Assembly (NCBI RefSeq): GCF_003687725.1
Contig: NZ_RDOJ01000013.1
Span: forward strand, 244 to 64,243
Reading direction: 5' to 3'
Length of the DNA: 64,000 bases
Source of the DNA: Faecalibacter macacae
GTDB taxonomy: Bacteria; Bacteroidota; Bacteroidia; Flavobacteriales; Weeksellaceae
The translations under genes were made by a program, and so were the position numbers. Shown here piece by piece: positions 320 to 38,878 of the stretch (position 1 is its first letter; every line of letters starts with the position of its first letter). The notes below the pieces were generated by a model. That model saw only the letters and a list, made by a program, of their open reading frames with translations, had not been told where the DNA came from and ran no database searches.

Positions 320-378
320 TTTAACTACTATTTAATTACCTTTCTAAATGCCTTTAAATACCATTTAACGAAAGTATA
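320..378. repeat. Phased 11-bp TTTAA array at left end, ending in site L3
   Basis: Hexamers of TTTAAN type start at 320 (TTTAAC), 331 (TTTAAT), 353 (TTTAAA) and 364 (TTTAAC), with a degenerate TTCTAA at 342: exact 11-bp phasing over five units. The last unit overlaps the third end motif, AACGAAAGTATA (367-378). Similar phased arrays recur through the prophage (from 4262, 8473, 13643, 23590, 26021, 28593, 36409 and 38829). Function unknown. Confidence 0.7.
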
Positions 379-437
379 TACCAATATAACCTGAAATACT
401 GCTTAAAACTACTATTATAGCGGTATTATGAAATATT

Positions 438-475
438 AAAAGCCTTTTAGACGACTGTTTAAAGGGCTTTTTTAT
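438..475. terminator. Bidirectional hairpin terminator near left end
   Basis: AAAAGCC (438-444) pairs with GGCTTTT (465-471), extended by A/T and G-U pairs, and is followed by T-rich sequence. It probably ends leftward transcription from the repressor gene and shields the prophage end. The rest of 379-705 holds no gene that I can support. Confidence 0.6.
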
Positions 476-527
476 ATTTTTTTGCGTAGATCTGCTGATG
501 CTATATTTTATTTAAAAAAAAGATTTT

Positions 528-560
528 GGACATACAGTTGGGCATACAGTTGGACATACA
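528..560. repeat. 12-bp tandem repeat (2.75 copies)
   Basis: GGACATACAGTT (528-539), GGGCATACAGTT (540-551) and GGACATACA (552-560) lie in tandem in the non-coding segment downstream of the repressor gene. This could be a protein-binding array. An in-frame reading gives a GHTV-type repeat peptide, but it has no start codon. Confidence 0.7.
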
Positions 561-705
561 AAATAGGTTTTGAAATGTATTTTAAAAGTAGTTATAATAC
601 CTTTAAAGTGTGTAAAACGTTATTATATTAATGATAAGCATAGGGATAATACACTTAAAATTAAAATAATATATTAATTATCTCTTTTGTAGTCAATATG
701 TTATG

Positions 706-1371
706 TTATTCTAAGCGCAAAACGCCTATAACAATTGCAATTTTGTAAATAGAATCTTTATTTATAGGGAAAGGTGGATAGTCTTTGTTATCACTTCTAC
801 ATTCTAATACATTTTCTTTATCTGTAGGGAATAAACGTTTGACCATAGGACCTTGATCCGTGTCTAATACATATATTTTGCCCCATTGGAAAAATGAAGT
901 ATCATTAACTGTTTTACAACCCAACAAATCACCACTACTGTATTTTGGGTACATACTTGATCCACTAACACGTATGATATATTCTACACCACGTTGCGTA
1001 AATTCTGGAATTACATAACCTCCAATTATATCTTTTTGCAGAATTTGTACAGATCCGTTATTTCCTTTACCTGCCATTGCTTCTATCGGTATTAATGGTA
1101 TATAATCTGTTTTAGGTTCTTTATCGCAAATTAAATCTTGTTTTAACATATCTCCTTTCCCAGTAAGAAGCCATTCTGAATTTATATAAACATTTGTTGA
1201 TACAATGGCGTTTAAAACCTCATAACTTGGTTTACTCTTTCTACCTGAAACAATATTTGATATTACTTGCGCTGAAAAACCAATATTTTCAGCAAATTTT
1301 TTTTGATTACCATTATATTGATTATCAATTATATACGATATTCTTTCATTAATATTTAAAATTTCAATCAT
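706..1371 (-). CDS. LexA-like S24 family phage repressor
   Basis: Putative CI-type repressor that keeps the prophage silent. From the ATG at 1371 it is 221 aa. An N-terminal helix-turn-helix (about residues 25-50, QKKFAENIGFSAQVISNIVS) is followed by an S24 peptidase domain with catalytic Ser139 in SGSSMYPK and Lys178 in PMVKRL. An Ala-Gly pair in EAMAGKG (about 100-101) is the expected autocleavage site, which suggests RecA-stimulated inactivation after DNA damage. The frame opens 24 codons earlier (1443), but that start would overlap the divergent gene at 1436. Starting at 1371 leaves a 64-bp divergent control region. Confidence 0.9.
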   Translation of the reverse strand: MIEILNINERISYIIDNQYNGNQKKFAENIGFSAQVISNIVSGRKSKPSYEVLNAIVSTNVYINSEWLLTGKGDMLKQDLICDKEPKTDYIPLIPIEAMAGKGNNGSVQILQKDIIGGYVIPEFTQRGVEYIIRVSGSSMYPKYSSGDLLGCKTVNDTSFFQWGKIYVLDTDQGPMVKRLFPTDKENVLECRSDNKDYPPFPINKDSIYKIAIVIGVLRLE

Positions 1372-1435
1372 CTTTTGTTTATTTAATATCAATAATTGTT
1401 TATATATTTGTTTTGTAATAGAAACAAAATAAGCA
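1372..1435. promoter_or_regulatory. Divergent promoter/operator region
   Basis: This is the 64-bp gap between the repressor and the rightward early genes. It contains an inverted repeat TTTGTTT / AAACAAA with an 8-bp spacer near 1408-1429 and a Bacteroidota -7-like element TATATTTG at 1403-1410 on the plus strand. It is the logical operator for the repressor and the small HTH protein. Binding is inferred. Confidence 0.5.
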
Positions 1436-1648
1436 ATGGACAAATCTATAAAAAAAAGACTGAGTTATAATACAGAAGTCGTAAAAGCTTTATCAGAAGA
1501 GTTTGGAGTATCAACAACATTTGTAAGACAAGCCATTCGTAAAGATAAGCATAGCCTTACTGCACAAACGATAGAAAAGAAGTACAAAGAGCTTGCGGGT
1601 GCAAGTTTACGTGCTATAAAAGATTTTAAAAAAAATCCGATTATATGA
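1436..1648 (+). CDS. Small HTH protein (Cro/Ner-like position)
   Basis: A 70-aa basic protein with a likely helix-turn-helix around residues 15-36 (VKALSEEFGVSTTFVRQAIR). It is the first rightward gene after the divergent control region, the position of Ner in Mu or Cro in lambda. It probably turns the lytic/lysogenic switch by binding the same operators. The family is not recognised from sequence alone. The assignment rests on position and the HTH pattern. Confidence 0.7.
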   Translation: MDKSIKKRLSYNTEVVKALSEEFGVSTTFVRQAIRKDKHSLTAQTIEKKYKELAGASLRAIKDFKKNPII

Positions 1649-1722
1649 GAGATCTAACAAAAATACAAGTACAAGCCATTGAATTATGGCTTGCAGATAT
1701 AGTAGTTAACATAAATAAATAA
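1645..1722 (+). CDS. Possible 25-aa peptide
   Basis: ATG at 1645 overlaps the stop of the preceding gene (ATGA), then 25 codons starting MRDLTKIQVQ and ending in TAA at 1720. The tight coupling and placement 6 bp before the next gene suggest it is translated. Nothing about function can be said. Confidence 0.35.
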   Translation: MRDLTKIQVQAIELWLADIVVNINK

Positions 1723-1727
1723 TAGAA

Positions 1728-1937
1728 ATGAAAGATTTAAACAAAGCAAAAGAATTGCTACATGAGTTAGCAGAAAAAGCTAATCAAGCAATTATGGCAA
1801 TTGAAAATGATAAACCAATTAGCGAAATATGTGATTTGGCAGTAGAGGAGTTAGATGTGTTAATTGTTCAAATTTCTTCGACTATCCTCGGGGATAGTTC
1901 CCCTATCATCTATCCTAATATCGATGTCGAAATGTAA
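1728..1937 (+). CDS. Hypothetical early protein, 69 aa
   Basis: An acidic, helical protein (MKDLNKAKELLHELAEKANQ...) in the early operon. It is not recognised. Its last 26 codons overlap the 3' end of the opposite-strand gene at 1860-2198. The N-terminal half looks like a normal helical protein, so I keep it. Confidence 0.55.
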   Translation: MKDLNKAKELLHELAEKANQAIMAIENDKPISEICDLAVEELDVLIVQISSTILGDSSPIIYPNIDVEM

Positions 1938-2198
1938 ATTATAATGCCAGATTAGAGTTCTCAGCATTTCATTAAATATGATGATATCTTGTGGATAAGC
2001 AACGTGTCTAATATATAAATCTCTTCTTAGAACATCACCTTTTCTGGCAGATTTATGCTCGTTTTGATGAGTGATTTGAAAAAACCAAGGATCAATAGCA
2101 TTTTTAAGTTTTTTCATAAATCGAAGTGTGGTTTCGTGGGAATCGGACTTAACTATAATAAAAAAAGTATGCTCGTATTCTCCATTATAATAACTCAT
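1860..2198 (-). CDS. Hypothetical protein, 112 aa, opposite strand
   Basis: The reading frame is open from 2258 (GTG), but the first ATG is at 2198, giving MSYYNGEYEHTFF... The composition, with balanced charge and many aromatics (DPWFFQITHQNEH, LIWHYNLHFDI), looks like a real globular protein. It lies between the early plus-strand genes and the transposase and is transcribed in the opposite direction, so it may be a lysogenic or cargo gene. Function unknown. Confidence 0.5.
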   Translation of the reverse strand: MSYYNGEYEHTFFIIVKSDSHETTLRFMKKLKNAIDPWFFQITHQNEHKSARKGDVLRRDLYIRHVAYPQDIIIFNEMLRTLIWHYNLHFDIDIRIDDRGTIPEDSRRNLNN

Positions 2199-2240
2199 AA
2201 CATTATATTTTTTGATTAGAAGCTTAAATATAATGTTTTT

Positions 2241-2282
2241 TTCCCGATAGGAAAGCACTCACGTTCGAGCCGTGAGCGGGAA
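2241..2282. promoter_or_regulatory. Composite hairpin upstream of the transposase gene
   Basis: TTCCCG (2241-2246) and CTCACG (2258-2263) pair with CGTGAG (2271-2276) and CGGGAA (2277-2282). This makes a 12-bp stem with an 11-nt bulge on the 5' side and a 7-nt loop. It lies 20 bp before the transposase start and 43 bp before the divergent gene at 2198. It could be an operator dyad or an RNA control element. No T-run follows, so a simple terminator is unlikely. Confidence 0.6.
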
Positions 2283-2301
2283 CAAATAATAAAACAAAAC
2301 A

Positions 2302-4254
2302 ATGTTTGAATATTACCAGAATACATTATGTGTAGCTGCTGTTTGGCTTTATGATGATGCAAAGATCATAACTAAGTCAAATTATGATGCTATGATAAAT
2401 AGAGGGCAATTAAAAAAGCTGACGACTGGTGGTAACGGACGTCGTGCATTGGTTGCTTATGAAAGTATTCCTGATCGTTTTAAAACGAAGATTAAGGCTT
2501 TGGCTGGTGATCCATACGAACAAGTGCGATATGTAGTATTGGCGGATTATATCGAGTATGATATGGAAGCTGAAAAGTTCTACAAATCTTATTTGTTGGA
2601 AGATGGTTCTAATCTTCCAGAGGAAAAGCAAAAGGAATACACGCACCAAGCAACAATCTTTAATGCAGTTAATCATGTTGCCACTAATGTGGTTGTGCAA
2701 CGCAAGTTTGGAGGTAAAACCAAAATGTGGTCTAAAATGTTAGAAGCTATTCAAAATTTACCAACAACCTGGTTGCACACGAGATACAAGAATGAATTAT
2801 CGTTTAAAAGAGCCTTTAGAAAGTATTTAAACGATGGTTATGAGGCGAATGTCTCAGGGAAGTTCCTAAACACGAATACGGTTAAGATAACAGGAGATAT
2901 TGCAGACTTTCTGTTAGCGCAATATTGTTTGCCGATTAAATACTCGGTTCCTGAGGTGATGGATGTGTACAATGAAGTTCGTGAGAAAAATGGTTGGAAG
3001 TCGATTGCTGAAAAAACAGTGTTAACATGGCTAAATAAACCTGATCAAATGCGCAAATGGTATGCGGCACGTCACGGTAAAGATGCGTATATGAAAAAAT
3101 ATGGGCATTCACTTTCCAGAGATCGTGCGGAGTTTTTTCCAAACTCTTGGTGGTCGATTGATGGTACTAAACTGGATTGGGTGCATTATGAAGATAACAA
3201 ACAGAAAATGGCAGCCTCAATGAAAATTGATATTGTGTTTGATGTTTATTCAGAAAAGATTATCGGGTGGGATATCGCTTTCACCGAAAATCATGCGGCC
3301 CACTTTAGAGCGATTAAGATGGCAGTAAACGAAGCAGGTGCAAGGCCTTATTTATTTACATACGATAATCAATCGGGTCACAAATCGGCTAAAATGCAAG
3401 ATTTATATGATCGTTTGATGCCTGAAAAAGGAACGCATTATCCACACATGGTTGGTCGTAAAACAGGATCGCCTGCTGAGCAGATTTTTAACCGCCTACA
3501 ACAACAAGTAATTGGTAAGATGTGGTTCTCTGACAAACAATCAATAAAGGTTCGTAAAGAGGATAATAAACCAAATACTGATTTCTTAATCGAGTTTAAA
3601 GGTGCATTACCAACAAAAGAAGAGTTGTGGCAATGGTTTGAATTGGCTGTGATGCAATGGAATTCAAAATGTAGACGTGATATGACGATTTGTAGAAATG
3701 ATTTGTATGCGCAAGATGCTCCATTTAGAAGTGAGATTGATTGGTCAGATCAATTAAGCTTATTCTGGGTAGATGAATCGAAGCCTAAGAAGTATTACGG
3801 TCATGGAATGCCAATGACAGTTGAAGGTAAAGATTATTTATACGAAGTGTACGACGAGGAAGGACAGATTGATACAGAATTCCGTCGCAAGTATGTTGGT
3901 GAGAAGTTAATCGTACGCTATGATCCTGAACAATTAGATCAGTTCATTGCCTTATACGAAACAACTTCTACAGGTGAAAAAAGATTTGTGGCTTATGCCG
4001 AGAAAAAACGAGCCTACCAACAGATACCAGTGCTGATGAAAGAACATTCGCGCGATCAGATGTTAAAGGATATTGCAGTTCGTGAGGACGAATTCAAAAG
4101 AGATTTAGCAGAAGCAGAAGAAATCATGAAGCGTGCAGGTGTAACTGTAGAAGGATTGATTGCAGACCAAGAATTGAACATGAAATTCAAAGGGCAACTT
4201 CCGAAAGAAGAACAAATGCAAGCTGATATAGATGAGTATCATGGAAAGTGGTAA
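2302..4254 (+). CDS. MuA-type DDE transposase
   Basis: Catalyses end cleavage and strand transfer for integration and replicative transposition. At 650 aa it is close to Mu A (663 aa). The N-terminal region (about 1-260) has winged-helix-type DNA-binding character. The catalytic core carries the DDE triad: Asp287 (WWSIDGTK), Asp355 (FTYDNQSG) and Glu393 (GSPAEQIFNR). The D-D spacing of 68 resembles Mu A. The C-terminal part (about 590-650) is charged and helical, as expected for the MuB/ClpX contact region. The MuB-like gene follows 56 bp downstream. Confidence 0.95.
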   Translation: MFEYYQNTLCVAAVWLYDDAKIITKSNYDAMINRGQLKKLTTGGNGRRALVAYESIPDRFKTKIKALAGDPYEQVRYVVLADYIEYDMEAEKFYKSYLLEDGSNLPEEKQKEYTHQATIFNAVNHVATNVVVQRKFGGKTKMWSKMLEAIQNLPTTWLHTRYKNELSFKRAFRKYLNDGYEANVSGKFLNTNTVKITGDIADFLLAQYCLPIKYSVPEVMDVYNEVREKNGWKSIAEKTVLTWLNKPDQMRKWYAARHGKDAYMKKYGHSLSRDRAEFFPNSWWSIDGTKLDWVHYEDNKQKMAASMKIDIVFDVYSEKIIGWDIAFTENHAAHFRAIKMAVNEAGARPYLFTYDNQSGHKSAKMQDLYDRLMPEKGTHYPHMVGRKTGSPAEQIFNRLQQQVIGKMWFSDKQSIKVRKEDNKPNTDFLIEFKGALPTKEELWQWFELAVMQWNSKCRRDMTICRNDLYAQDAPFRSEIDWSDQLSLFWVDESKPKKYYGHGMPMTVEGKDYLYEVYDEEGQIDTEFRRKYVGEKLIVRYDPEQLDQFIALYETTSTGEKRFVAYAEKKRAYQQIPVLMKEHSRDQMLKDIAVREDEFKRDLAEAEEIMKRAGVTVEGLIADQELNMKFKGQLPKEEQMQADIDEYHGKW

Positions 4255-4261
4255 AGCCTTA

Positions 4262-4300
4262 TTTAATCAATGTTTAAACACTATTTAAAGAATAATTAAA
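4262..4300. repeat. Phased 11-bp TTTAAA array before the MuB-like gene
   Basis: Hexamers start at 4262 (TTTAAT), 4273 (TTTAAA), 4284 (TTTAAA) and 4295 (ATTAAA): four units at exactly 11 bp. They fill the gap between the transposase and MuB-like genes. One of nine such arrays in the prophage. Confidence 0.75.
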
Positions 4301-4310
4301 AGATAATAAA

Positions 4311-5162
4311 ATGACACAACAAGACAAGTTTGTAGTAGTAGAAGAGCTAGAAAGATATATAGCACAGAAGGGTTCACAAAACAAAGTGGCTAACGAAATG
4401 GTAGGTGTTTCTGCGGCAACATTAAGCCAAATGAGAAATCATAACTGGGAAAATATTGCCGACGAAATGTGGCGTAAAGTTTCTGCATTCTTAGGAATAG
4501 GCACTAACGAATGGAAATTTGCTGAAACTACAAATGCAAAAACATTATTGCGATTATTTGGCGATGCACAGGCGTTAAGTTTAGTAATGGCGGTAACAGC
4601 TAATGCAGGAAGTGGTAAAACATCAACTGCAAAACAATACGAAGCAGATAATATGAATGTTTTTCGATTAAGCTGTAGCGACTATTGGGATAAGAAATGG
4701 TTTTTGAAAGAATTGCTTTCAAAGATGGGGAAAGAAACTGATGGTATAACAATGCCAGAAATGATGCAAAAGGTAGTGCTTACTTTAAAAGCAATAGACA
4801 GACCGTTAGTTATTTTAGACGAAGCTGATAAACTTCAGGATAATGTATTACTATTCTTTATTACACTTTTTAACGAGTTGGAAGATCACGCAGGTATCAT
4901 GTTGATGGCCACTCACTTCCTAGAGCGTCGTATTGTAAGAGGTGTTGCGGCACAAAAGAAAGGTTATCGTGAAATTTATTCGAGAATTGGACTTCGATTT
5001 ATCGAATTAGAACAAACAAGTTTTGCAGATGTAAAAGTAGTTTGTGAAATGAACGGAGTCTCAGACGACAAGTCAATTAAAGCCATTGCAAAGGATTGTG
5101 ATGGTGATATCCGAAGAGTAAAAAGATTAGTAATAGCAAATAAACGAGCGAATAATGAATAA
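4311..5162 (+). CDS. MuB-like AAA+ target-selection ATPase
   Basis: Partner of MuA that binds target DNA and stimulates strand transfer. 283 aa. An N-terminal HTH (about 24-45, KVANEMVGVSAATLSQMRNH) precedes the ATPase core with Walker A at about 97-105 (ANAGSGKTS) and Walker B at 166-173 (LVILDEAD). Mu B has the same layout. The stop overlaps the start of the next gene by 8 bases. Confidence 0.93.
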   Translation: MTQQDKFVVVEELERYIAQKGSQNKVANEMVGVSAATLSQMRNHNWENIADEMWRKVSAFLGIGTNEWKFAETTNAKTLLRLFGDAQALSLVMAVTANAGSGKTSTAKQYEADNMNVFRLSCSDYWDKKWFLKELLSKMGKETDGITMPEMMQKVVLTLKAIDRPLVILDEADKLQDNVLLFFITLFNELEDHAGIMLMATHFLERRIVRGVAAQKKGYREIYSRIGLRFIELEQTSFADVKVVCEMNGVSDDKSIKAIAKDCDGDIRRVKRLVIANKRANNE

Positions 5163-5607
5163 GGAGTTTCGATATCATCCAGTTATAGATGGCTTGAAAG
5201 TTAATGAGGACGGCACTGAAGTTTTGTTAAACGGAAATAAACTGACGATAAAAGAGTTTTATGTCGCTGAAACAAAGAGAGTAAGACGGAATGTAAACTT
5301 TTTATCCAGAAATATTACAATAACTAGATTAGTGTGTGAATGTTTTCATGGCTTAGCAGAGAATAAGGGTTTATCCGCTACTTTAATAGATCCCACTAAA
5401 GGAGATCATTACACTAATATCTATTGGGCGAAGAGAGGAATGAAAATTAATCCCATTAGGCACAGAAAAGTAACAGAAGAAAATCATAAAGAAATTCAAG
5501 AAAGGTTAGCGAGCGGAGAGAAGATGAAAGATATTATAAAAGATTTTCCATTTACCAACGCAACCTATTGTATATACAAGCGATTATATGGCAAAAAAGA
5601 AAAGTAA
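5155..5607 (+). CDS. HNH-fold-like protein lacking catalytic His
   Basis: 150 aa. The segment ITRLVCECFHGL followed by LIDPTKGDHYTNIYWAKRG matches the layout of HNH endonucleases of the NUMOD/phage type (RLV..AFHG...VDHIDGN..NN...NLRW). The DH and the N of the active site are not conserved, so it is probably a DNA-binding remnant and not a nuclease. It is coupled to both neighbours by overlaps. The family assignment is tentative. Confidence 0.6.
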   Translation: MNKEFRYHPVIDGLKVNEDGTEVLLNGNKLTIKEFYVAETKRVRRNVNFLSRNITITRLVCECFHGLAENKGLSATLIDPTKGDHYTNIYWAKRGMKINPIRHRKVTEENHKEIQERLASGEKMKDIIKDFPFTNATYCIYKRLYGKKEK

Positions 5608-6229
5608 CAGAGCGTTTTCAATTTCAAATATTACCACAAAAAAGTTTTCGCCATTAGCATTTGAAAACGAGTTCTTTGATTCGCTCGGTAAACCAGATAA
5701 AGCATTCTCTGCAATCATTTGGGGTAATTCTAGCAACGGTAAAACATCTTTTGCAATGCAACTGGCAAAGTATCTTACCAAGTTCGGTAAAGTAGCTTAC
5801 AATTCACTAGAAGAAGGATTAAGCCATACGATGCAGATGACCATTAACCGAACTTTTATGGATGAATGCGAAAACTCATTTATTCTGTTAGATAGAGAAC
5901 CATTCGAAGATATGATTGAACGAATGAATAAACCAAAATCGCCACAATTCCTGATTATAGATTCTGTCCAATATACACGCATTACTAAAAATCAATACTA
6001 CCAATTAAAAGAGTTGATGCAGGACAAAGGCAAAGGAATTATTTGGGTTTCTCAAGCGAAAGGAAAAGAACCAAAAGGAGCATTAGCTGATGATATCCGT
6101 TACGACGTGGATTTGAAGCTTTGGATTGAAGGTTATAAAATGTTTCCGTCGGGCCGACTAAATGGAGGCGGTCAACCTTTTACGATTTGGCCTGAAAAGG
6201 CTGCAAAATACTGGAAAGAAATTATCTAA
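5588..6229 (+). CDS. RecA-like P-loop ATPase
   Basis: 213 aa with Walker A at about 46-53 (GNSSNGKTS) and a Walker B strand at 121-126 (FLIIDS), in the style of RecA/DnaB-fold phage ATPases. It probably acts on DNA during replicative transposition or recombination. The start at 5588 overlaps the previous gene by 20 bases, which suggests translational coupling. Its exact role is unknown. Confidence 0.75.
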   Translation: MAKKKSNRAFSISNITTKKFSPLAFENEFFDSLGKPDKAFSAIIWGNSSNGKTSFAMQLAKYLTKFGKVAYNSLEEGLSHTMQMTINRTFMDECENSFILLDREPFEDMIERMNKPKSPQFLIIDSVQYTRITKNQYYQLKELMQDKGKGIIWVSQAKGKEPKGALADDIRYDVDLKLWIEGYKMFPSGRLNGGGQPFTIWPEKAAKYWKEII

Positions 6230-6243
6230 AACAAAACAACACT

Positions 6244-6594
6244 ATGAATTACGAGGAGATTAAAATAACAATACAAGCGGCATTGCAATTATCAACTATA
6301 CAGTACCGCAATGAAACACGAGTAGCATTTGAAGTATGGGCTTTTAGAACAGCACAAATACAAAATGCATTACTTGAAGAAATAACAAGAAGCGAAGCAA
6401 TTTGGAACTGGTATCAGAACCAATACCGAAAAATAGAACAACGCTTCTACAAAGAAAATAGAGATTTTTTGACAGGTGGTTTTAATCCAATGGAAGTCTT
6501 TCAGGTTTTTAGATGGATGACCAAAGAAATAGAAGATTACTATCCAGCAACCTTAATTAACAAGCTAAACAATGGACAAACAGTATCTAAGTAA
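6244..6594 (+). CDS. Hypothetical early protein, 116 aa
   Basis: A helical protein rich in Gln, Glu and Trp (AIWNWYQNQYRKIEQRFYKEN). Not recognised. It overlaps the next gene by 23 bases within the tightly packed early operon. Confidence 0.65.
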   Translation: MNYEEIKITIQAALQLSTIQYRNETRVAFEVWAFRTAQIQNALLEEITRSEAIWNWYQNQYRKIEQRFYKENRDFLTGGFNPMEVFQVFRWMTKEIEDYYPATLINKLNNGQTVSK

Positions 6595-6790
6595 AAAGCA
6601 ACACGAAAAACGCATTGAAAGACTGAATGCGTGGATAGAGAAAAATCCAAACGATCCTATGAAAGGAACAGCAATTAAAGAAGCTGCATTATATGCCTTT
6701 CAGCTAAAGGAAATGAAAGATTTAGGTTTAAAAACCATCGATAATAAAGTACCAACTCAAATATATCAACAAATAGGCGTACTGATCTAA
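6572..6790 (+). CDS. Hypothetical early protein, 72 aa
   Basis: A basic, helical small protein (MDKQYLSKKQHEKRIERLNA...). Its stop abuts the next start (TAATG). Not recognised. Confidence 0.6.
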   Translation: MDKQYLSKKQHEKRIERLNAWIEKNPNDPMKGTAIKEAALYAFQLKEMKDLGLKTIDNKVPTQIYQQIGVLI

Positions 6791-7071
6791 TGAAAATAAA
6801 ATTTACAAATGAGCAACTATTACTAACGCTCAATTACGATACCAATGTAAGACAAGTGTTTAGCTTGTATGAACGATGCTTAATTCATAAAGTAATTCAT
6901 CGAGACCAAGTATTACCAACTGATTTGTTTACGAAGATAAAAGATCTTCTACTGAAGATTAAAATTCAGAATTATAAACCAAAGTATTTCACTTGGGTTG
7001 AGAATATAGACAAAGGTGGGTTTGTTCTTTTAGAAACCAAAATCAAAGAATCGTGGAATTATTTAAAATAG
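6790..7071 (+). CDS. Hypothetical early protein, 93 aa
   Basis: Starts at the ATG overlapping the previous stop. It is a mixed alpha/beta, basic protein (MKIKFTNEQLLLTLNYDTNV...). Not recognised. Confidence 0.6.
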   Translation: MKIKFTNEQLLLTLNYDTNVRQVFSLYERCLIHKVIHRDQVLPTDLFTKIKDLLLKIKIQNYKPKYFTWVENIDKGGFVLLETKIKESWNYLK

Positions 7072-7076
7072 TATAA

Positions 7077-7310
7077 ATGAAAAATTCAATCGAACTAAGT
7101 AATCGCAGGTTCATCAAACGAACTTTTAGAGTTTGTCGAAAATCAAACAAAATAAGAGGAATTATTCTGAAAAGAATCAAGCATAATTCTAATAAAGATT
7201 TACCATCACTTAATAGAAGGTATTTAAATGCAAGTGCGGAAGCACACTCACGCATGTCAGCAGTAGAAGCTGCGATAGATCAATTAAAATCAAACAAAAA
7301 CTCAATATAA
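7077..7310 (+). CDS. Hypothetical basic protein, 77 aa
   Basis: Arg/Lys-rich N-terminal half (RRFIKRTFRVCRKSNKIRG) and a short acidic helix at the C terminus. It may bind nucleic acid. It stands 5 bp after the previous gene and 1 bp before the next. Confidence 0.6.
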   Translation: MKNSIELSNRRFIKRTFRVCRKSNKIRGIILKRIKHNSNKDLPSLNRRYLNASAEAHSRMSAVEAAIDQLKSNKNSI

Positions 7311-7311
7311 T

Positions 7312-7977: not shown

Positions 7978-8087
7978 TGATAGAAATCTTAAAACCAATA
8001 GCCATCATCATAGGAACATGGTGGCTATTTATTGCAGTTCTTGTTGCGATAACGATTAGTAAAAGAAATAACCAAAATCACGATTAA
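7977..8087 (+). CDS. Small membrane protein, 36 aa
   Basis: The ATG overlaps the previous stop. MIEILKP is followed by one strongly hydrophobic segment (AIIIGTWWLFIAVLVAITI) and a basic tail (SKRNNQNHD). Single-pass inner-membrane topology is expected. It may be a superinfection-exclusion or regulatory micropeptide, which is inference. Confidence 0.6.
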   Translation: MIEILKPIAIIIGTWWLFIAVLVAITISKRNNQNHD

Positions 8088-8089
8088 TT

Positions 8090-8837: not shown

Positions 8838-8844
8838 CTATACT

Positions 8845-9273: not shown

Positions 9274-9274
9274 G

Positions 9275-9943: not shown

Positions 9944-9944
9944 T

Positions 9945-11029: not shown

Positions 11030-11030
11030 T

Positions 11031-28611: not shown

Positions 28612-28629
28612 TGTTTAAATGCCATTAAA
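28593..28629. repeat. Phased TTTAAA array between spike gene and next gene
   Basis: TTTAAA at 28593, 28603 and 28614, then ATTAAA at 28624. The spacing is 10-11-10 bp, close to one DNA turn. It spans the end of the spike gene and the start codon of the 68-aa gene. Confidence 0.65.
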
Positions 28630-29752: not shown

Positions 29753-29753
29753 T

Positions 29754-31074: not shown

Positions 31075-31904
31075 ATCATATAGATATACAACAGGCAGGA
31101 GGTTTCCCGATGGAAACTAATACGTTGGATGCAATGCAAAAATCGTATGAAGTCTTCAATGTTTTTGGTGGTACAATTGCATCGTTAGCAATTGTTTCTG
31201 GTTGCGTAATTACAGGTAATCAAGTATCAAATGGCTATGTCAACATTGATAATATTTTATACGAATTTCGAGGAGGACAAGCTTCTCAATATGTGATTAT
31301 TCAGCAAGAAGAGGAGTCAAGAAATTTTGAAAGTGGTGAAACTAAAATAGTTTATATCAAACGATGGGCAACATTCGGAGAATCTTCTAGTCCTGAAAAT
31401 AATTATCCTTGGGCAGATTTTCATCGTTCAATAACCAATAAAGAGTTGTCTAAACGTGCAAATCATGTAGGTTTTATTCAAGATTATTACGGTCCATTGG
31501 ATAATATTCCAACAGGTTGGTTTTTGTGCGATGGATCAAACGGAACACCTGATTTAAGAGGCCGTTTTGTGGTTGGATATAAAGGGAATGATGCTGATTA
31601 CAACGAGCTTGGAAAAGTTGGTGGAGCAAAAGAAGTTGCTTTAACGGCTAATCAGAACGGAAGGCATACGCATGGTGGTTCAGTATCAATTCCAGATCAT
31701 ACACACACGTATCTCAAAGCAATTAAGGCTCGCGGTTATCGTACTCAGGCCGATGATAATCCTTTTGGAAACCACGAGTCTGCACAAACATCTTCAGCAG
31801 GTGGTGGGACGTTTACCGTATCAGTTGGCGAGTCGGGCGCCGGTGAAGCGCACGAGAATAGACCACCATATTATGTGCTAGCAAAAATAATGTATAAAGG
31901 ATAG
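31071..31904 (+). CDS. Tail fibre protein with collar-like domain
   Basis: 277 aa. GPLDNIPTGWFLCDGSNGTPDLRGRFVVGY is the phage tail-collar signature, followed by His-rich turns (GRHTHGGSVSIPDHTHTY) of the H-x-H type that bind metal in fibre tips. C terminus ENRPPYYVLAKIMYKG is typical of collar proteins. It may be the receptor-binding or adaptor part. Confidence 0.85.
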   Translation: MNHIDIQQAGGFPMETNTLDAMQKSYEVFNVFGGTIASLAIVSGCVITGNQVSNGYVNIDNILYEFRGGQASQYVIIQQEEESRNFESGETKIVYIKRWATFGESSSPENNYPWADFHRSITNKELSKRANHVGFIQDYYGPLDNIPTGWFLCDGSNGTPDLRGRFVVGYKGNDADYNELGKVGGAKEVALTANQNGRHTHGGSVSIPDHTHTYLKAIKARGYRTQADDNPFGNHESAQTSSAGGGTFTVSVGESGAGEAHENRPPYYVLAKIMYKG

Positions 31905-31906
31905 TT

Positions 31907-33454
31907 ATGGCATTAGAACCACAACAAGATCAGTTAAGAATTACTGATAAAAATAGTTTGAAGCAATGGTTTAAACGAGGTTTAAAACCATTAGAGGCAC
32001 ATTTTTGGGCGTGGCTAGATTCTTTTTGGCACAAGAATGATTTAATTCCTATTACATCCGTTCAAAATTTGCGAAAAACATTAGATTCAAAGTCTAATGT
32101 AGAACATATTCATGTTCAATATACAACACCAGCTATTGTTCAGTCGATGATTGATAATCAAATTACGTCAATCTATCGATTAATGTCTCCAGTTGCTACC
32201 TATGCAGATTTACCAATGGATGGAAATCTTAACGGAGATGTTCGAAATGTCTCAGATACAGGTATGAATTACGTTTGGGATGGAACCGAATGGGATGCGT
32301 TGGGAGGTTTGTTGGATTTGACTAATTACGTTACTCAAATCCAATTTACAACTGCATTATCTGATATGGCAACCCAAACGTGGGTGAATCAACAGCTTGC
32401 TAACGTTTCTATTGATTTATCTAATTACTACACCGCTGAGGAAGTGAGAGGTAAATTGATTCCGTATGCTACTCAAGAATGGGTAAATCAACAAATAGCC
32501 AATAGTTCAGGTGGTGGCGGTGGTGGTATGGATTTGTCATTATATGCCTTAAAAAATGCGACAGGATTAAGCTCCGAGCATATAGCTGCATGGCGTACAC
32601 AGTTAGGAGTTACTGAAGGTGGAGGAACTGTTGAAGACATTGTGTCTGATTATAACATTGGTTCTGTAAAAGTTGGCGATTTAATACCTGCTGGTACAAC
32701 TACACAAGGGTTGGCGTCTGTATTATTTACAGGAACTTTTACTCCAGATTTAATTGCTCCAAGTTTATCATTGTCTCATAATGCAGGTAGTGTTAGAGAG
32801 ATTGGTGAGAGTGTTCAAATTATTTTGACTGCTAATTTTAACCGTGGTGATATTAGAGGAGCTGTTGTTAATGGTGTTTGGAGTGTGAATGCCTCTCAAG
32901 GCGCACGTGCTGGTGTTGCAATTAGTTATGAATTTAATGGTCTTGTAAATGGAGTTAACACGTCTAAAACAATTACCCATGTTGTAGCATCAGGTAATAA
33001 TAATTTCTCTGCTAAAGTAAATTATGCAGCATCTACTGTGCAACCAAAAAATAATAAAGGTGAGAATTTTAGTTCACCATTAGCGGCTGGTAGTTTAACT
33101 GCTTCAGTTAGTTTTCTAGGCCGCTACCAAACATTCTTTGGTAATAGTAATGGCTCGACACCTGCAAGATCTCTTCCACAAAAGGCATGGGCAAATGTTA
33201 ACACAATGGACTTAACTGCCACGATGGGTATCAATTACTATGATATTTATGTTGTTGCAACCAAACAATTAGTTTCAGTTGTGGATGTAGAAATTGGTAA
33301 TGTTGACATTACGAATGCCTATACAGATAAAGGATTAGTAACAGTTAATGATGCTGGAGGAAATGCAGTTTCGTACAGAAAGTATCAGCTATATAATGCA
33401 CAACCTTACAGCGATAAAAATCATACGCATAAAATAACATTAAAAGACTTATAA
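31907..33454 (+). CDS. Large tail fibre protein, 515 aa
   Basis: Repeated QxWVNQQ(L/I)AN segments (TWVNQQLANVS, EWVNQQIANSS) with Gly-rich linker, then a beta-rich C terminus from about residue 250. It ends in DKNHTHKITLKDL. Probably the main host-range fibre. A TTTAAA pair (31970, 31981) is present near the start. Confidence 0.8.
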   Translation: MALEPQQDQLRITDKNSLKQWFKRGLKPLEAHFWAWLDSFWHKNDLIPITSVQNLRKTLDSKSNVEHIHVQYTTPAIVQSMIDNQITSIYRLMSPVATYADLPMDGNLNGDVRNVSDTGMNYVWDGTEWDALGGLLDLTNYVTQIQFTTALSDMATQTWVNQQLANVSIDLSNYYTAEEVRGKLIPYATQEWVNQQIANSSGGGGGGMDLSLYALKNATGLSSEHIAAWRTQLGVTEGGGTVEDIVSDYNIGSVKVGDLIPAGTTTQGLASVLFTGTFTPDLIAPSLSLSHNAGSVREIGESVQIILTANFNRGDIRGAVVNGVWSVNASQGARAGVAISYEFNGLVNGVNTSKTITHVVASGNNNFSAKVNYAASTVQPKNNKGENFSSPLAAGSLTASVSFLGRYQTFFGNSNGSTPARSLPQKAWANVNTMDLTATMGINYYDIYVVATKQLVSVVDVEIGNVDITNAYTDKGLVTVNDAGGNAVSYRKYQLYNAQPYSDKNHTHKITLKDL

Positions 33455-33455
33455 C

Positions 33456-34355
33456 ATGGCTACAGAGATAAAATATGGTGCACCTTTCCCTTTTGGTATA
33501 GATTGTACAAATCCTATATATGATATTGACCCAAATAAAGGTCCTTATGAATCTGAGGCTGATGCTATGGCTGTATTTCCAGTTGCATTACGAGAAGTTG
33601 GACGTGCAATTGGAATTTATACAGACGCAACAAAAAAGGCTGTAAAAGTTTATAACTGGGAAAAGAATGCTAGTGATGCTTGGGTTTTAAAACCACAAGC
33701 GGGTGAATATGAATTAACTTATGCTAAACTTATAGCTGCTTTAGGTTATACGCCAATGGCAACTACTCATGCTGCAAATGGAGTTACAACAACTTTAATT
33801 GGTGATTGGAATACTGCTTTTACAAACAACCATACGCATAGTAATAAGACTGTGTTAGACGCAACAACAGCATCTTATACGACAGCAGATAAAGCAAAGT
33901 TAGATAGTTTAGTAAACTATGAATTAACTTCTGCTAAGGTTATTTCTGCACTTGGTTATACACCAATAGCGAATACACATGCAGCTAATGGGGTTACAAC
34001 TGCTTTAATTACTAATTGGAATACTGCATTTACTAATAACCATACACATGGTAACAAATCAACCTTAGATACAATCACTGCTCAAAGGATGTTGGGATGG
34101 GACGCTAAGATGGATAAAGTTACTGAAAACGGAAATATCGTCAGAGTTCTAGGTTTAGACGCTGAGAATAATGCGAAAAATGCTGAAGTTGTTGATATTA
34201 TTGGTATATGGGATTCGAATACTGCTCCAACAGAACAACAACTTATAGAAAGCTTTCCTGATGCATTGTTTGTGTATGCCGTAGCAATAACACCTAGAGT
34301 GATGTATTTGAAAGCTGGTGTAGAATGGAAGAAAGTTAACTTAACTGACATATAA
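33456..34355 (+). CDS. Tail fibre protein with internal duplication, 299 aa
   Basis: A unit of about 70 residues is repeated: E-L-T-x-A-K-x-I-x-ALGYTP ... HAANGVTT ... NWNTAFTNNHTH at about residues 89-137 and again at about 152-200. Both copies end in the metal-binding H-T-H. Fibre shaft of trimeric type expected. Confidence 0.8.
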   Translation: MATEIKYGAPFPFGIDCTNPIYDIDPNKGPYESEADAMAVFPVALREVGRAIGIYTDATKKAVKVYNWEKNASDAWVLKPQAGEYELTYAKLIAALGYTPMATTHAANGVTTTLIGDWNTAFTNNHTHSNKTVLDATTASYTTADKAKLDSLVNYELTSAKVISALGYTPIANTHAANGVTTALITNWNTAFTNNHTHGNKSTLDTITAQRMLGWDAKMDKVTENGNIVRVLGLDAENNAKNAEVVDIIGIWDSNTAPTEQQLIESFPDALFVYAVAITPRVMYLKAGVEWKKVNLTDI

Positions 34356-35650
34356 TGGATATAGTAAAGTTTTTCGGAAACATAGGAAGGTCAGGTCAAA
34401 TTTTATGGAAGTACCCTGATTTATCTACAATACACTTAGAAGTTTCAGGGACAAGTTTCCCTGATTTACAAGTACAATCAGCTGGGACATCTAATGCTAC
34501 TAATGTTATCTTCGAGGTTATATCTAGTAATTCTAATAATGAGATGTATATTGATTTTTCAGACGGTACAGGTATACATACGTATCAACCAAATGCATCA
34601 GGTGTATTTAAATATGAAGCTACACCATTACACTATTTTCAAGATGTCCCAGCTGAATATAAGGATACTTATAATGTAGATTATCTTATTAAGAGAACAA
34701 TAAAGATAAGTTTTAAATACCCTTCTAGTACCACTTACATGAAACTAGACTACGTAGGTTTCTATGGAGATTTCCCTAGATCATTAGGAGCATACAATTT
34801 TACGAATGGTATATATATTAGGAGTGCTGATACTCTTAGAAGATGGGAAACTTTCCCAACAGCACTAAGAGGTCTTAGAAGTAACTCGTTTATATTGTAT
34901 GGTTGTTTCTTAGAAAGATTTACAACTATACCTTTATGGTTGATTAATTCAGAACTTAAATCACTTACTCTTGCTTCAGTATTTGATGGTTCTGCTGTAA
35001 ACACAGTAAATGGTATGGATAGGATACATAATATCAAAGGTTTAGAAACTATTAATATGGTAAGTTCTAGTTTAGGAAATAATTCTTTCGCTAACAATCT
35101 AAAAGATATACCAACTTTGAGAAATGTGTTCTTCCAATACAATACATTTACAACAGTTCCTGACGCTATATATAATGCGTTACAGTTAATATATATAACT
35201 TTAGGTAGCTCATCCCTTACGAGTTGGGGAACAGGATTCAAAGCAGGTACACAAATTAACAGATTAGGGTATGGACCTTCAAACAATGCTTCATTCCCTA
35301 CAACTGTTCCTACAGGAGTAGTTAACTGTATTCTATTAAAGATAGTTGAGTTAACAGGTACGTACAGAACTCAATCTAGAGTAGATGCTCACGTAGGAGC
35401 GTGGTACGATTTTGTAGTGGCTAATGCTTCTACATCAGCAGGGAATACTCAGTTTAGACAAATGTCTATAACTATGGGTTATACGAACTCTACTGCTACA
35501 GGAATAAACACTAGACCTTCAGGAGTATATCAAGATAGTAGTACACCTACTACAGCCATGGAAAAGATTTATAAATTGGTTAATGTATACGGACATACAT
35601 GGACAATAGTTAATACAGCAGGTACTGGTAATCAAATTTTTACACCATAA
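34355..35650 (+). CDS. LRR-like tail-tip protein with foreign codon use, 431 aa
   Basis: The middle (about 170-310) has leucine-rich-repeat-like strands (IPLWLINSELKSLTLASVF, LKDIPTLRNVFFQYNTFTTV, IYNALQLIYITLG). The C terminus (NVYGHTWTIVNT) recalls BspA-type surface proteins. Every Arg codon I checked is AGA or AGG, unlike the neighbours, which use CGT. This suggests recent acquisition of the gene as a host-range module. Confidence 0.6.
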   Translation: MDIVKFFGNIGRSGQILWKYPDLSTIHLEVSGTSFPDLQVQSAGTSNATNVIFEVISSNSNNEMYIDFSDGTGIHTYQPNASGVFKYEATPLHYFQDVPAEYKDTYNVDYLIKRTIKISFKYPSSTTYMKLDYVGFYGDFPRSLGAYNFTNGIYIRSADTLRRWETFPTALRGLRSNSFILYGCFLERFTTIPLWLINSELKSLTLASVFDGSAVNTVNGMDRIHNIKGLETINMVSSSLGNNSFANNLKDIPTLRNVFFQYNTFTTVPDAIYNALQLIYITLGSSSLTSWGTGFKAGTQINRLGYGPSNNASFPTTVPTGVVNCILLKIVELTGTYRTQSRVDAHVGAWYDFVVANASTSAGNTQFRQMSITMGYTNSTATGINTRPSGVYQDSSTPTTAMEKIYKLVNVYGHTWTIVNTAGTGNQIFTP

Positions 35651-35655
35651 TTACA

Positions 35656-35847
35656 ATGAGATACATAATAACAATCGCTTTTAATCGAATCACTTCAATT
35701 AATCAAGCAGAGTCCGATTTAACAATAGAACAAGGCGAAAGTTCAACTGTAAAAGTAGGTACTTACGAGAATTTAGTTCAAGAACTTTCTGATGTTGTTG
35801 AAAATATTGAATTTTTAACCCAAACTCACGAGCAAAATTTATTATAA
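35656..35847 (+). CDS. Hypothetical protein, 63 aa
   Basis: MRYIITIAFNRITSINQAES..., acidic. Between the fibre genes and the lysis module. Not recognised. Confidence 0.5.
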   Translation: MRYIITIAFNRITSINQAESDLTIEQGESSTVKVGTYENLVQELSDVVENIEFLTQTHEQNLL

Positions 35848-35848
35848 T

Positions 35849-36166
35849 ATGTTAAAAAAATTAGGGAACTTCTACATGAAGTATTACGCTACTACAGGGA
35901 TAGTAAGTAGTGTTTTGGCTACTAAGCTAATAGGTGGTGGTTTATTATTTATGCTAATCCTGTCATTGATGGGAGAGCATAACGCAAGAAATATAGCATT
36001 GTCTGTATTCTTGGCAAATATAACAATTACACTTATTGCAATTGGAATTAATAAAGCATTTCCGAAGGTTTATAATAAACCAGAGAAAGCGGTAATTATT
36101 GCTATGCTTGCACCTCTAGGAGTGTTAGGTTTTATATTCGGTAAAGATGATGGAGTGGCTAAATAG
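35849..36166 (+). CDS. Holin-like membrane protein, 105 aa
   Basis: Three hydrophobic segments: TTGIVSSVLATKLIGGGLLF with FMLILSL, NIALSVFLANITITLIAIGI and AVIIAMLAPLGVLGFIFG. Small, polytopic and directly before an amidase. Putative holin or antiholin. Confidence 0.6.
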   Translation: MLKKLGNFYMKYYATTGIVSSVLATKLIGGGLLFMLILSLMGEHNARNIALSVFLANITITLIAIGINKAFPKVYNKPEKAVIIAMLAPLGVLGFIFGKDDGVAK

Positions 36167-36413
36167 ATACGTAGACAAAATTGCTCACGAAAGCCTGAGT
36201 AATTTGATTTGTTGGATCATCTTTATTCCAAGCTTTTTCATTATTCAATTTTGGTCAATCCTTCCAGCTATAATTATCTCATTCATAGTTGGGTTAAAAA
36301 AGGAAAAGAAAGATCTAAAATTTGATCAAAAAGATATGCTAGCAAATGGAATTGGTATTTTGCGTTTTTGCATTCAAATAGGCGTGGTAAGCTTACTATT
36401 CAGTAGGTTTTAA
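36147..36413 (+). CDS. Second holin-like membrane protein, 88 aa
   Basis: Two hydrophobic segments (LICWIIFIPSFFIIQFWSIL, AIIISFIVGL) and a C-terminal one (ILRFCIQIGVVSLLFSRF). It overlaps the previous gene by 20 bases. Together they could form a holin/antiholin pair. Confidence 0.6.
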   Translation: MMEWLNRYVDKIAHESLSNLICWIIFIPSFFIIQFWSILPAIIISFIVGLKKEKKDLKFDQKDMLANGIGILRFCIQIGVVSLLFSRF

Positions 36414-36458
36414 AATTCATTTAAACAGTATTTAAAAATCAATTAAAGGTTGTGTAAA
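36409..36458. repeat. Phased 11-bp TTTAAA array before the amidase gene
   Basis: TTTAAA at 36409, 36420 and 36431, ATTAAA at 36442 and TGTAAA at 36453: five units at exactly 11 bp. It lies in the gap between the holin-like and amidase genes. Confidence 0.75.
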
Positions 36459-36492
36459 ACTACACGATCAGGATAAACTCATTTTAAAAATT

Positions 36493-36906
36493 ATGGCAAG
36501 AAATATCAAATACATTGTAATTCATTGCACGGCTGGTCCGCAAGATCAAACAACTGCTGCAATTAAAAATTGGTGGAAAACTGGCTTAGGTTGGAAATCT
36601 CCAGGATATCATTTATTAATTTCTGCTGATGGAAGTTATGAGCGTCTAGCTAAGGATGAAGAAATCTGTAATGGTGTAGCAGGTCAAAATAAGCATTCAA
36701 TTCATATCTCTTATAAAGGTGGTGTTGATGCTAAGGGTAAAGCATTAGATAATCGTACAGATGCGCAAAAAAAGACTTTAATTACATTGATTAAAACAAT
36801 GAAATCGAAATATCCAAATGCTCGTGTAGTAGGCCATAGAGATTTTCAGGGCGTTAAAAAGGATTGTCCGTCATTTAATGCGATAAAAGAGTATGCAGGT
36901 CTTTAA
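36493..36906 (+). CDS. N-acetylmuramoyl-L-alanine amidase (endolysin)
   Basis: 137 aa amidase_2 (T7 lysozyme-type). First zinc ligand His11 (VIHCTAG). VVGHRDFQGVKKDCPSFN near the C terminus carries the second His, the acidic residue and the Cys ligand. It cleaves the peptide side chain from the glycan at lysis. No signal peptide, so export depends on the holin. Confidence 0.95.
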   Translation: MARNIKYIVIHCTAGPQDQTTAAIKNWWKTGLGWKSPGYHLLISADGSYERLAKDEEICNGVAGQNKHSIHISYKGGVDAKGKALDNRTDAQKKTLITLIKTMKSKYPNARVVGHRDFQGVKKDCPSFNAIKEYAGL

Positions 36907-37459
36907 GTTGTTAATGGTAGCGACATTGATGTCGTTACCATTTAGTTGTGCTACCAAGCGCAAAGTAAAGGAAGTGGAACGTATTGAAATTAAAACCGAA
37001 AATCAAATCCGAAATGATTCTTCTGCAGATATAAAAATAGAGCGTTCATCGCATGACTTTTTAAGTAACTATTCATCCAATGAAAGTTTGCTTTCAAAGC
37101 TTGGATTAGTATTTAACGGTAAATCTAATGAAGATAAAGGCTCGTTTTCTATTCATGAAACTGATAAAGGGTTGCAGGTTGATATACAAGGAGCCTTGCA
37201 AATGGCTTTAGATAAAACCCATTCAAAGGATGAAACCTTTACAAAAGCTGAAGCAATTAAATTGTTTGATAGTATTATAAAGGCTAATCTTCAGCAAAAT
37301 AAAACGGAACGATCCGAGCAGTTATTGGATAGCTTCAAAAGTGATACAACCAAAGAAAAAACAGATATAAGCTTTTGGATATATGCAGTTATAGGATCAG
37401 TCCTCGTTGTTGGGACAGCAATTTATGTTGCAATTAAACAACTAAAAGGAGGTAAATAA
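36893..37459 (+). CDS. Spanin-like lipoprotein with C-terminal membrane segment
   Basis: 188 aa. The N terminus MQVFKLLMVATLMSLPFSC has a lipobox with Cys19, so it is lipid-modified. The middle is charged and coiled. The C terminus has one membrane segment (FWIYAVIGSVLVVGTAIYVA) and a basic tail. Lipid anchor plus inner-membrane helix is the layout of a unimolecular spanin (phage T1 gp11 type), which fuses inner and outer membrane at lysis. It overlaps the amidase stop by 14 bases. Confidence 0.65.
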   Translation: MQVFKLLMVATLMSLPFSCATKRKVKEVERIEIKTENQIRNDSSADIKIERSSHDFLSNYSSNESLLSKLGLVFNGKSNEDKGSFSIHETDKGLQVDIQGALQMALDKTHSKDETFTKAEAIKLFDSIIKANLQQNKTERSEQLLDSFKSDTTKEKTDISFWIYAVIGSVLVVGTAIYVAIKQLKGGK

Positions 37460-37460
37460 A

Positions 37461-37574
37461 GTCCTCCAACAAATTAAAATACTTCCTACGGTAATTTTAA
37501 AATAGCACAAAGCCCACAGTTGGAGGACAGAAATGTCTTCTAGTTGTGGGTTTTTTGCGTTCATTACCGTAGGA
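37461..37574 (+). terminator. Late terminator with nested and competing pairings
   Basis: Main hairpin: CCCACA (37513-37518) with TGTGGG (37545-37550) and GAGGACA with TGTCTTC around a GAAA tetraloop (37530-37533), then six T. Outer arms TCCTACGGTAAT (37484-37495) and ATTACCGTAGGA (37563-37574) are perfectly complementary. GTCCTCCAAC (37461-37470) is fully complementary to GTTGGAGGAC (37519-37528) and would disrupt the hairpin. It ends the lysis operon and may also control the downstream methylase. Confidence 0.75.
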
Positions 37575-37607
37575 GCAACAAATATAAATAATATATAAAT
37601 AAAACAA

Positions 37608-38447
37608 ATGAAAAATTACACACAAAGTCCTTTACCATTTCAAGGGCAAAAAAGAAAATTCTTAAAATCTGTAAAATAAGTGATTCACAATTATCCTGAT
37701 CAAATGATTTATGTTGACTTGTTTGGGGGTTCAGGAATCTTAAGCCATACGGTAAAACAACTAAAACCAAATTCTAAGGTAATTTATAATGATTATGACA
37801 ATTTTAATCATCGAATAGCTGCAGTTGCTAATACTAATGAATTATTGAATAAAATAAGAATTATAACTAATGATTTGCCTAAGGATAAGCTAATTCCAGA
37901 GGTTTATAAAAATGAGATTTTAAAAATTATTAAAGATGAGGAAACAAAGGTTGGATTTGTGGATTATATCACTTTATCCAGTTCATTATTATTTAGTGCA
38001 AAGTATGTTACTTGTTATGATGAGTTAGAAAAACAAACATTCTATAACAATGTAAGACAGAGCAATTATACCACTGAAGGGTATTTGTATGGTATTGAAG
38101 TAGTTTCAAAGGATTATAAAATATTATTCGAGCAATACAAAGGTTTTGATAATGTTGTATTCTTGGTAGATCCACCTTATTTAAGTACTGATTGTTCAAC
38201 CTATTCAAGTAATAACTACTGGAAATTGAAGGATTATTTAAACGTGTTGGATGTTTTAGTAGGAACGAACTATTTGTATTTCACGTCGAATAAAAGCCAA
38301 ATCGTGGAATTATGCGAATGGATGGAGACACGAACTTCTCAGGGAGATGTAAATCCATTTAAAGGAGCTACAACTGTAAGTATAAATACAACATTAAATC
38401 ATTCAGCTAAATACACTGATATGATGTTGTATAAGTTTAAATTGTAA
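37608..38447 (+). pseudogene. Dam-like D12 adenine methylase broken by a stop codon
   Basis: ATG at 37608 reads MKNYTQSPLPFQGQKRKFLK SVK and then TAA (37677-37679). The same frame continues VIHNYPDQMIYVDLFGGSGI ... to 38447 without further stops. The family needs the N-terminal PFQGQKR (AdoMet contact) and has LFGGSG and DPPY (FLVDPPYLST), all present. One nonsense codon thus splits a whole gene of about 279 codons. GTG right after the stop could restart, but would drop the PFQGQKR motif. Either a pseudogene or reversible. Confidence 0.8.
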
Positions 38448-38523
38448 AATCCCAATTACTATATAAAGGTAGTGATTATTAGCGGGTTTACAAAAAATTT
38501 ACACTTCAAAATGCATATATTTT

Positions 38524-38838
38524 ATGTATTATTGTGTTAAAATTAATGATATGGAATTGAAACGTTATGATTTTAAAATTTTTTGGGAATACGAGTTGAG
38601 TGATTATTGGAATTTGAATGATCATCCATTGTATATTAAATTAATTAGTAAGCGTGAAGCACCATATTTTAAGATAAGTGAACAGGATTTTGAAGGATCT
38701 ACAAAAATAACAAGCTTAACTGCTTTTGTAAGGTATTACTCAGCCTTTGATTGGTTATTGGTTTCTAAAACAAAAACTGAAAAAGTCATTAAATTAACTC
38801 AGTCTATGATTAATATACCTTGGTCACCATTAAAGTAA
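38524..38838 (+). CDS. Hypothetical right-end protein, 104 aa
   Basis: MYYCVKINDMELKRYDFKIF... Basic/aromatic, not recognised. A second ATG at 38551 is equally possible. Last gene before the prophage end. Right-end genes of Mu-like phages are often accessory, for example DNA modification or anti-restriction. Confidence 0.55.
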   Translation: MYYCVKINDMELKRYDFKIFWEYELSDYWNLNDHPLYIKLISKREAPYFKISEQDFEGSTKITSLTAFVRYYSAFDWLLVSKTKTEKVIKLTQSMINIPWSPLK

Positions 38839-38878
38839 TATTAAAAGCCGTTTAAAGATGATTTAAACGGCTTTTATA
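38829..38878. repeat. Phased 11-bp TTTAAA array at right end, with terminator
   Basis: ATTAAA at 38829 and 38840, TTTAAA at 38851 and 38862 and TTTATA at 38873, exact 11-bp phase. AAAAGCCGTTTAAA (38843-38856) pairs with TTTAAACGGCTTTT (38862-38875), a perfect 14-bp stem, so it also serves as the terminator of the last gene. Confidence 0.8.

Follow-up and report, generated by a model that had tools for sequence, protein, structure and literature searches.

The window analysed here, a stretch of 64,000 nucleotides of Faecalibacter macacae (contig NZ_RDOJ01000013.1, assembly GCF_003687725.1), contains a Mu-like prophage in which nine arrays of TTTAAA-like hexamers, phased at about 11 bp, are dispersed. 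All nine array positions given by a first-pass annotation were confirmed in the sequence. The ends of the prophage were placed at ~193 and 38950, because a repeat of a clustered regularly interspaced short palindromic repeats (CRISPR) array is broken off at 192 and continues at 38951, with a 5-bp duplication. Head, portal, neck and tail genes are present between these ends. The prophage, its regulatory and transposition genes, and the arrays are as follows:

193..38950, no strand assigned: Mu-like prophage splitting a CRISPR repeat; GTAAT (5 bp) is duplicated at 188-192 and 38951-38955
706-1443, minus strand: S24 repressor gene
2302..4254, plus strand: MuA-type transposase gene (phrog_310, E 7e-56; Pfam rve below its cut-off)
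4311..5162, plus strand: MuB-type AAA+ ATPase gene (phrog_296, E 4e-55)
320..369, no strand assigned: left-end array, 127-177 bp from that end, with five degenerate units spaced by 11 bp
4262..4300, plus strand: array of four units in the gap between the MuA and MuB genes
8473..8523, plus strand: array within a 62-aa reading frame (8350-8538), just upstream of a gene at 8535
13643..13681, minus strand: array overlapping the start of a neck-protein gene (13130-13654, minus strand)
23590..23639, plus strand: array in the gap between a gene end at 23573 and a predicted tRNA-Thr at 23690
26021..26059, plus strand: array within a tape-measure-type gene (24320-26533)
28593..28629, plus strand: array at the end of a gene (28117-28611) and across the probable start of a short reading frame near 28620
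36409..36447, plus strand: array in the gap upstream of an amidase gene (36493-36906)
38829..38878, no strand assigned: right-end array, at 72-121 bp from that end, doubling as a terminator-like hairpin with a T-run

The units had been described as mostly TTTAAA, which did not hold: exact TTTAAA occurs one to three times per array, and the other units are one-off variants. As to placement, the arrays at 8473 and 26021 are inside reading frames; the first of these may be partly codon-driven, and the second may be codon-driven. Those at 13643 and 28593 overlap the start of a gene and the likely start of a small reading frame, respectively. An array followed by ATG, as at 28593, was found also in the relatives G157 and G337.

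The Arrays Are Specific to the Prophage

The arrays were evaluated with a score for chains of TTTAAA-like units that follow one another at 10-12 bp; this score was devised after the arrays had been seen, and a threshold of 8 was used for it. In the window positions 1-39400 this threshold was reached by eight of the nine arrays; the array at 320-369, with five units at 11-bp steps and one exact TTTAAA, scored below it, and weaker chains were found at 2803, 17078 and 31970. No chain scoring 8 or more occurred in simulated DNA (10 runs each for Markov orders 1, 3 and 5) or in the 24.6-kb host flank.

Counts of exact TTTAAA pairs gave the same picture. In the prophage, 11 pairs were separated by 11 bp versus 0.22 expected per lag; lag 22 gave 4 pairs, lags 10, 12 and 21 gave 2 each, and all remaining lags from 4 to 59 gave 0 or 1. 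The host flank had no pair at lag 11. The whole 2.9-Mb genome contains 28 lag-11 pairs, 11 in the prophage, which makes up 1.3% of the genome, and 17 in the other 2.86 Mb (binomial p 4e-14 for the excess in the prophage). The control pattern AAATTT (TTTAAA read backwards) gave 19 pairs at 11 bp genome-wide. The arrays are real and prophage-specific, and the idea that they are a feature of the phage withstood two of the refuting tests proposed with the first-pass annotation, comparison with simulated and with host DNA.

Related Phages of Bacteroidota Carry Similar Arrays

The idea withstood comparison with related phages as well. The closest named relatives of the transposase, ~60-62% identical, are from Flavobacterium and unclassified Flavobacteriaceae. 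A related transposase was found in 11 genome loci and 13 viral loci, one of which (L012) is the same phage as that of the window. These 24 loci, together with two segments of the window, were scanned for k-mer lags in an unbiased way. The top signal was lag-11 TTTAAA in the window phage and in L004, L010, L012, L017 and L020; other repeats came up in L002, L008 and L015, and nothing was obtained from the host flank or from any other locus. Twelve viral records together held 49 lag-11 pairs versus 1 for the control, and when the window's own phage was left out, 38 pairs remained in 11 records, one of which had none. In the host genomes of six relatives, prophages included, we counted 42, 29, 33, 25, 12 and 26 pairs versus 22, 9, 20, 11, 15 and 13 for the controls; the sole genome below its control (12 versus 15) was that of Kordia.

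Phased units were present at the MuA/MuB junction in 20/26 other loci, among which L006/L013, L004/L020 and L007/L015/L019 are near-duplicates. The junctions without them were those of the Kordia loci L009 and L021, and those of L024, Peternella, Porphyromonas and Bacteroides. A MuA relative was found in 14/320 genomes of the host's family, its own genome included. The regions around it contained 5 lag-11 pairs in G252, 6 in G255, 3 in G157, 5 in G324, 4 in G337 and 3 in G319 (0.05-0.23 expected), 1-3 each in G333, G327, G277, G297 and G331, 1 in G039 (0.46 expected) and 0 in G036. Further prophages had 2 (G013b), 1 (G015c) and 0 pairs (G015b and the Kordia region). Perfect four-unit arrays, sought in 395 Bacteroidota genomes, were found in 1 genome, this pattern being too strict for a survey.

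The left-end arrays of several relatives (G014, G015a, G003, G005, G006 and L008) form terminator-like hairpins built from array units, CCGTTTAAA...TTTAAACGG, followed by T-runs. Intrinsic terminators were rejected as a general explanation of the arrays, since in the window such hairpins were seen by eye at the end arrays only and the other arrays are without one.

Mu-like Phages beyond Bacteroidota and the IMG/VR Survey

Arrays are carried by several Mu-like phages whose transposases are 29-45% identical, and also by Mu-like phages of Mannheimia, Pasteurella and Vibrio. Lag-11 pairs number 6 in Mannheimia phage 3927AP2 (0.11 expected), 4 in Vibrio phage martha 12B12 (0.03 expected) and 3 in Bacillus BalMu-1 (0.04 expected); martha 12B12 has phased units at the MuA/MuB junction as well. 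Pasteurella phage AFS-2018a combines 7 such pairs with 5 at lag 10 (0.11 expected). Exact TTTAAA pairs at lag 11 are missing from coliphage Mu; its MuA/MuB gap holds a degenerate chain TTTAAT/TTTAAA/TTTAAT, with 3 looser pairs versus 0.14 expected.

In IMG/VR, the four-unit TTTAAA pattern at 11 bp was found at no fewer than 120 loci, the 11-bp numbers being lower bounds, versus 31 for 10 bp, 16 for 13 bp, 13 for 12/11/12 bp and 11 for AAATTT in four complete control scans. The sets overlap slightly: L268 of the 10-bp control is the record of L017, L292 of the 12/11/12 control is the record of L156, and L145, a tandem repeat, appeared in both the 11-bp and the AAATTT scans. Spacers were compared in the 11-, 13- and 10-bp sets. 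They were less than half identical to one another in 82% of the listed 11-bp arrays versus 6% in the 13- and 10-bp sets, and near-identical repeats made up 62% of the 13-bp set and 48% of the 10-bp set. Away from the matched array, the 58 listed loci with homologues of window-phage proteins contained 47 further lag-11 pairs versus 2.6 expected, and the other 62 contained 20 versus 2.5 expected. Judged by the counts against the four controls, both the 11-bp spacing and the TTTAAA hexamer are specific in IMG/VR.

The MuA-type transposase phrog_310 was detected in 27/50 array records, hand-picked among the 120 listed loci from those without a displayed MuA or MuB match, versus 0/16 control records (p 4e-5). 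The 23 misses comprised 14 records shorter than 20 kb, 4 simple repeats and 5 others. Apparently non-Mu contigs with arrays were L103 (phrog_91 replication protein), L133 (integrase), L187 (DNA primase) and L142 (helicase/polymerase). Since L103 and L133 carry arrays without phrog_310, the arrays are not confined to MuA/MuB elements, unless these records are incomplete, as they may be. L103, a phage contig of 57% GC with a replication-nicking protein, has a perfect four-unit TTTAAA array at ~426-464, and thus the arrays are not limited to transposable phages.

Architecture of the Arrays

The sets used for context, orientation, length and spacer GC include related phages, and the 39-kb genome stretches in them include some flanking host DNA; eight simple-repeat loci were excluded from the orientation, length and second-arm analyses. 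Most called arrays (121/164) consist of 4 or 5 units and span 38-50 bp. The 87 spacers between phased units had a GC content of 0.46 versus 0.33 for the non-coding background, with the highest value, 0.66, at the middle base, whereas DNA following 428 isolated TTTAAA was at background (p 4e-5). The arrays thus have the form of a ~47-bp arm with AT and GC phased at 10-11 bp. Among eight flank windows, periodicity gave uncorrected p values of 0.002, 0.020 and 0.028 at 6-50, 50-94 and 70-114 bp downstream.

Insertion Site and Neighbouring Features

The CRISPR array (window 1-192 and 38951-39456), one repeat of which is split by the prophage, has 47-bp repeats and 30-bp spacers, and further copies of the repeat are on contig C16 of the same genome. 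The two left-side spacers matched the prophage in no more than 22/30 positions at best; in the comparison of the other six with the prophage, the two best matches listed were copies of the CRISPR array itself. Among the prophage genes is one for a DNA methyltransferase-type protein (9275-9943, phrog_67). A tRNA-Thr (TGT) was predicted by ARAGORN at 23690-23763, in the gap directly after the 23590 array; tRNA-like features are annotated between head genes in three E. coli Mu-like prophages too.

The Arrays as Candidate Gyrase-Wrapping Arms

The first-pass annotation had proposed a host or phage protein that binds one DNA face repeatedly. This fits the present results, but among the functions suggested then, silencing, packaging and late control became less favoured, and target immunity remains, through MuB, as a rival. 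The TpA step in TTTAAA is flexible. The combination of helical phasing, a fixed hexamer with this flexible step, and GC enrichment half a turn away points to DNA wrapping. We therefore propose, with about an even chance of being right, that each array is a candidate high-affinity wrapping arm for the host DNA gyrase, like the right arm of the strong gyrase site (SGS) of Mu.

In the sections of the Topo-Seq study consulted (PMC6379681), the E. coli gyrase motif is described as two 47-bp arms with a GC periodicity of 10.75 bp and with AT at positions whose minor groove is turned towards the protein; each GyrA C-terminal domain is said to wrap 35-52 bp. The length of a four- or five-unit array is close to that of the DNA wrapped by one such domain, as would suit a gyrase arm. 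The right arm of the Mu SGS is essential and contains repeated bending motifs, according to the consulted part of PMC10052514. In the Mu sequence, counted from the annotated cut, we found TTTAAA at +14 and again at +35, followed by TTTAAC at +47. Phased units also lie in the gap upstream of the protease gene, which is the SGS position in Mu, in the Mannheimia, Pasteurella and Vibrio phages and in Mu-like prophages of E. coli (TTTAAC/TTTAAA 10 bp apart), so that, with Mu included, TTTAAA-type units occupy this position in five phage groups. A GC periodicity of 10-11 bp is common to the gyrases of three distant species (PMC12324340, a preprint, in the part consulted), which would explain one motif across hosts of different phyla. 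Arrays that turn up sporadically outside Mu-like phages are likewise in keeping with a host protein. A host wrapping enzyme, gyrase, is favoured over a phage repressor, a packaging signal or a late activator, because the arrays are spread over diverged phages and hosts, have GC-enriched half-turns, and have counterparts among the units in Mu's gyrase site.

Several observations weigh against gyrase arms. The units of the Mu SGS are 21 and 12 bp apart, not 11. No upstream flank window reached p <0.05, and no clear second arm was seen. A generic cosine score of AT/GC periodicity, which placed the Mu SGS arm at the 99.95th percentile of Mu, failed to single out the window arrays, and for this reason we relied on hexamer-based tests. 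AAATTT arrays were not enriched, which is stricter than a degenerate GC motif would suggest. The prophage centre (~19570) is without an array, the nearest being those at 13643 and 23590. Arrays were absent from the part seen of the Kordia regions, whose MuA is 46% identical, and from GC-rich Pseudomonas transposable phages, of which D3112 contains no TTTAAA; the central gaps of Ab30 and D3112 had no strong phasing, and the Porphyromonas and Bacteroides regions had no TTTAAA pair at lag 11.

If the arrays are gyrase arms, several of them along the prophage would load host gyrase locally and maintain negative supercoiling of the prophage. The arms would also help to fold the prophage into a domain and to bring the two ends together for replicative transposition. 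From the patterns described, we infer gyrase binding and a role in supercoiling, synapsis or genome immunity. A broader proposal is that an ancient scaffold of dispersed gyrase-wrapping arrays is common to transposable phages, and that this scaffold forms supercoiled prophage loops and is the basis of both end synapsis and the unexplained immunity to self-insertion. It is speculative and rather unlikely to hold as a whole.

Alternative Explanations

The arrays could instead bind another transcription or nucleoid protein, either a multi-site phage repressor acting like stoperators or a host protein such as HU, which we consider unlikely. Their context would suit such a protein, as 0.55 of arrays are non-coding versus 0.12 of random positions, and 0.48 versus 0.15 are near gene starts. 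Moreover, spacer asymmetry tracks the direction of transcription, significantly in raw counts with related phages pooled, but it may stem from strand composition and from the relatedness of the phages, and it was not used as support. The occurrence of one motif across phages of different phyla would speak against a phage-specific repressor, as far as repressors compared by annotation can tell.

Still less likely, in our opinion, the arrays are loading sites for a filament of MuB, or for MuA, that mark phage DNA against self-insertion. The detection of phrog_310 in array records and not in control records fits this, and in Mu strong MuB binding is found throughout the phage genome and MuB-bound DNA consisting of A/T only is shielded (PMC2837660, in the part consulted). 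However, the literature, in the parts consulted, describes MuB as non-specific and as holding fairly straight DNA, and Mu genome immunity as mostly MuB-independent. In addition, some array records are not Mu-like, and the Kordia phages have a related MuA without arrays in the part seen.

A highly improbable explanation is that the arrays stem from chance, from terminator stems or from codon usage (Phe-Lys, Leu-Asn), as suggested by the two window arrays in reading frames, the hairpins at the end arrays and the conserved coding stretches that make up some relatives' arrays. For the whole set, but not for single coding arrays, it is refuted by the simulated, host, spacing and hexamer controls.

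Comparison with Known Systems

Like the stoperators of mycobacteriophage L5, the arrays recur many times in the short gaps between genes of a temperate phage; unlike them, they are helically phased, stoperators being single asymmetric repressor sites. The closer likeness is to the right arm of the Mu SGS, in which TTTAAA-type units share one face of the helix for about four turns, likewise within a Mu-like phage, and arrays occupy the same, central gap in the Mannheimia, Pasteurella and Vibrio phages. Mu differs in having one near-central site with irregular spacing, whereas the prophage has about nine more regular, dispersed arrays, none of them exactly central. Oram and Pato reportedly studied candidate gyrase sites of a few Mu-like prophages in 2004. 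A single central candidate, along with four fixed crossing points, has been suggested for phage Ab30 of P. aeruginosa (PMC5977238, in the part consulted), and a 2021 paper called the conservation of gyrase sites in transposable phages unclear.

With the E. coli gyrase Topo-Seq motif, as given in the sections of PMC6379681 consulted, the arrays share a 10-11-bp AT/GC periodicity over ~47 bp; that motif is degenerate and has two arms and a centre, whereas the arrays have one evident arm and a near-fixed hexamer. Mu genome immunity and MuB coating are likewise a genome-wide property of a transposable phage, but PMC2837660 and PMC7350765, in the parts consulted, name no defined sequence element. 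In the open-licence literature, as far as it was consulted, we did not find dispersed phased TTTAAA arrays described as a trait common to transposable phages. A central gyrase site was already known in Mu; what would be new is the many dispersed arms. Such a signature, present in phages from Bacteroidota through to Proteobacteria, would point to candidate gyrase sites in many phages and suggest that Mu, with its one central site, is a reduced case.

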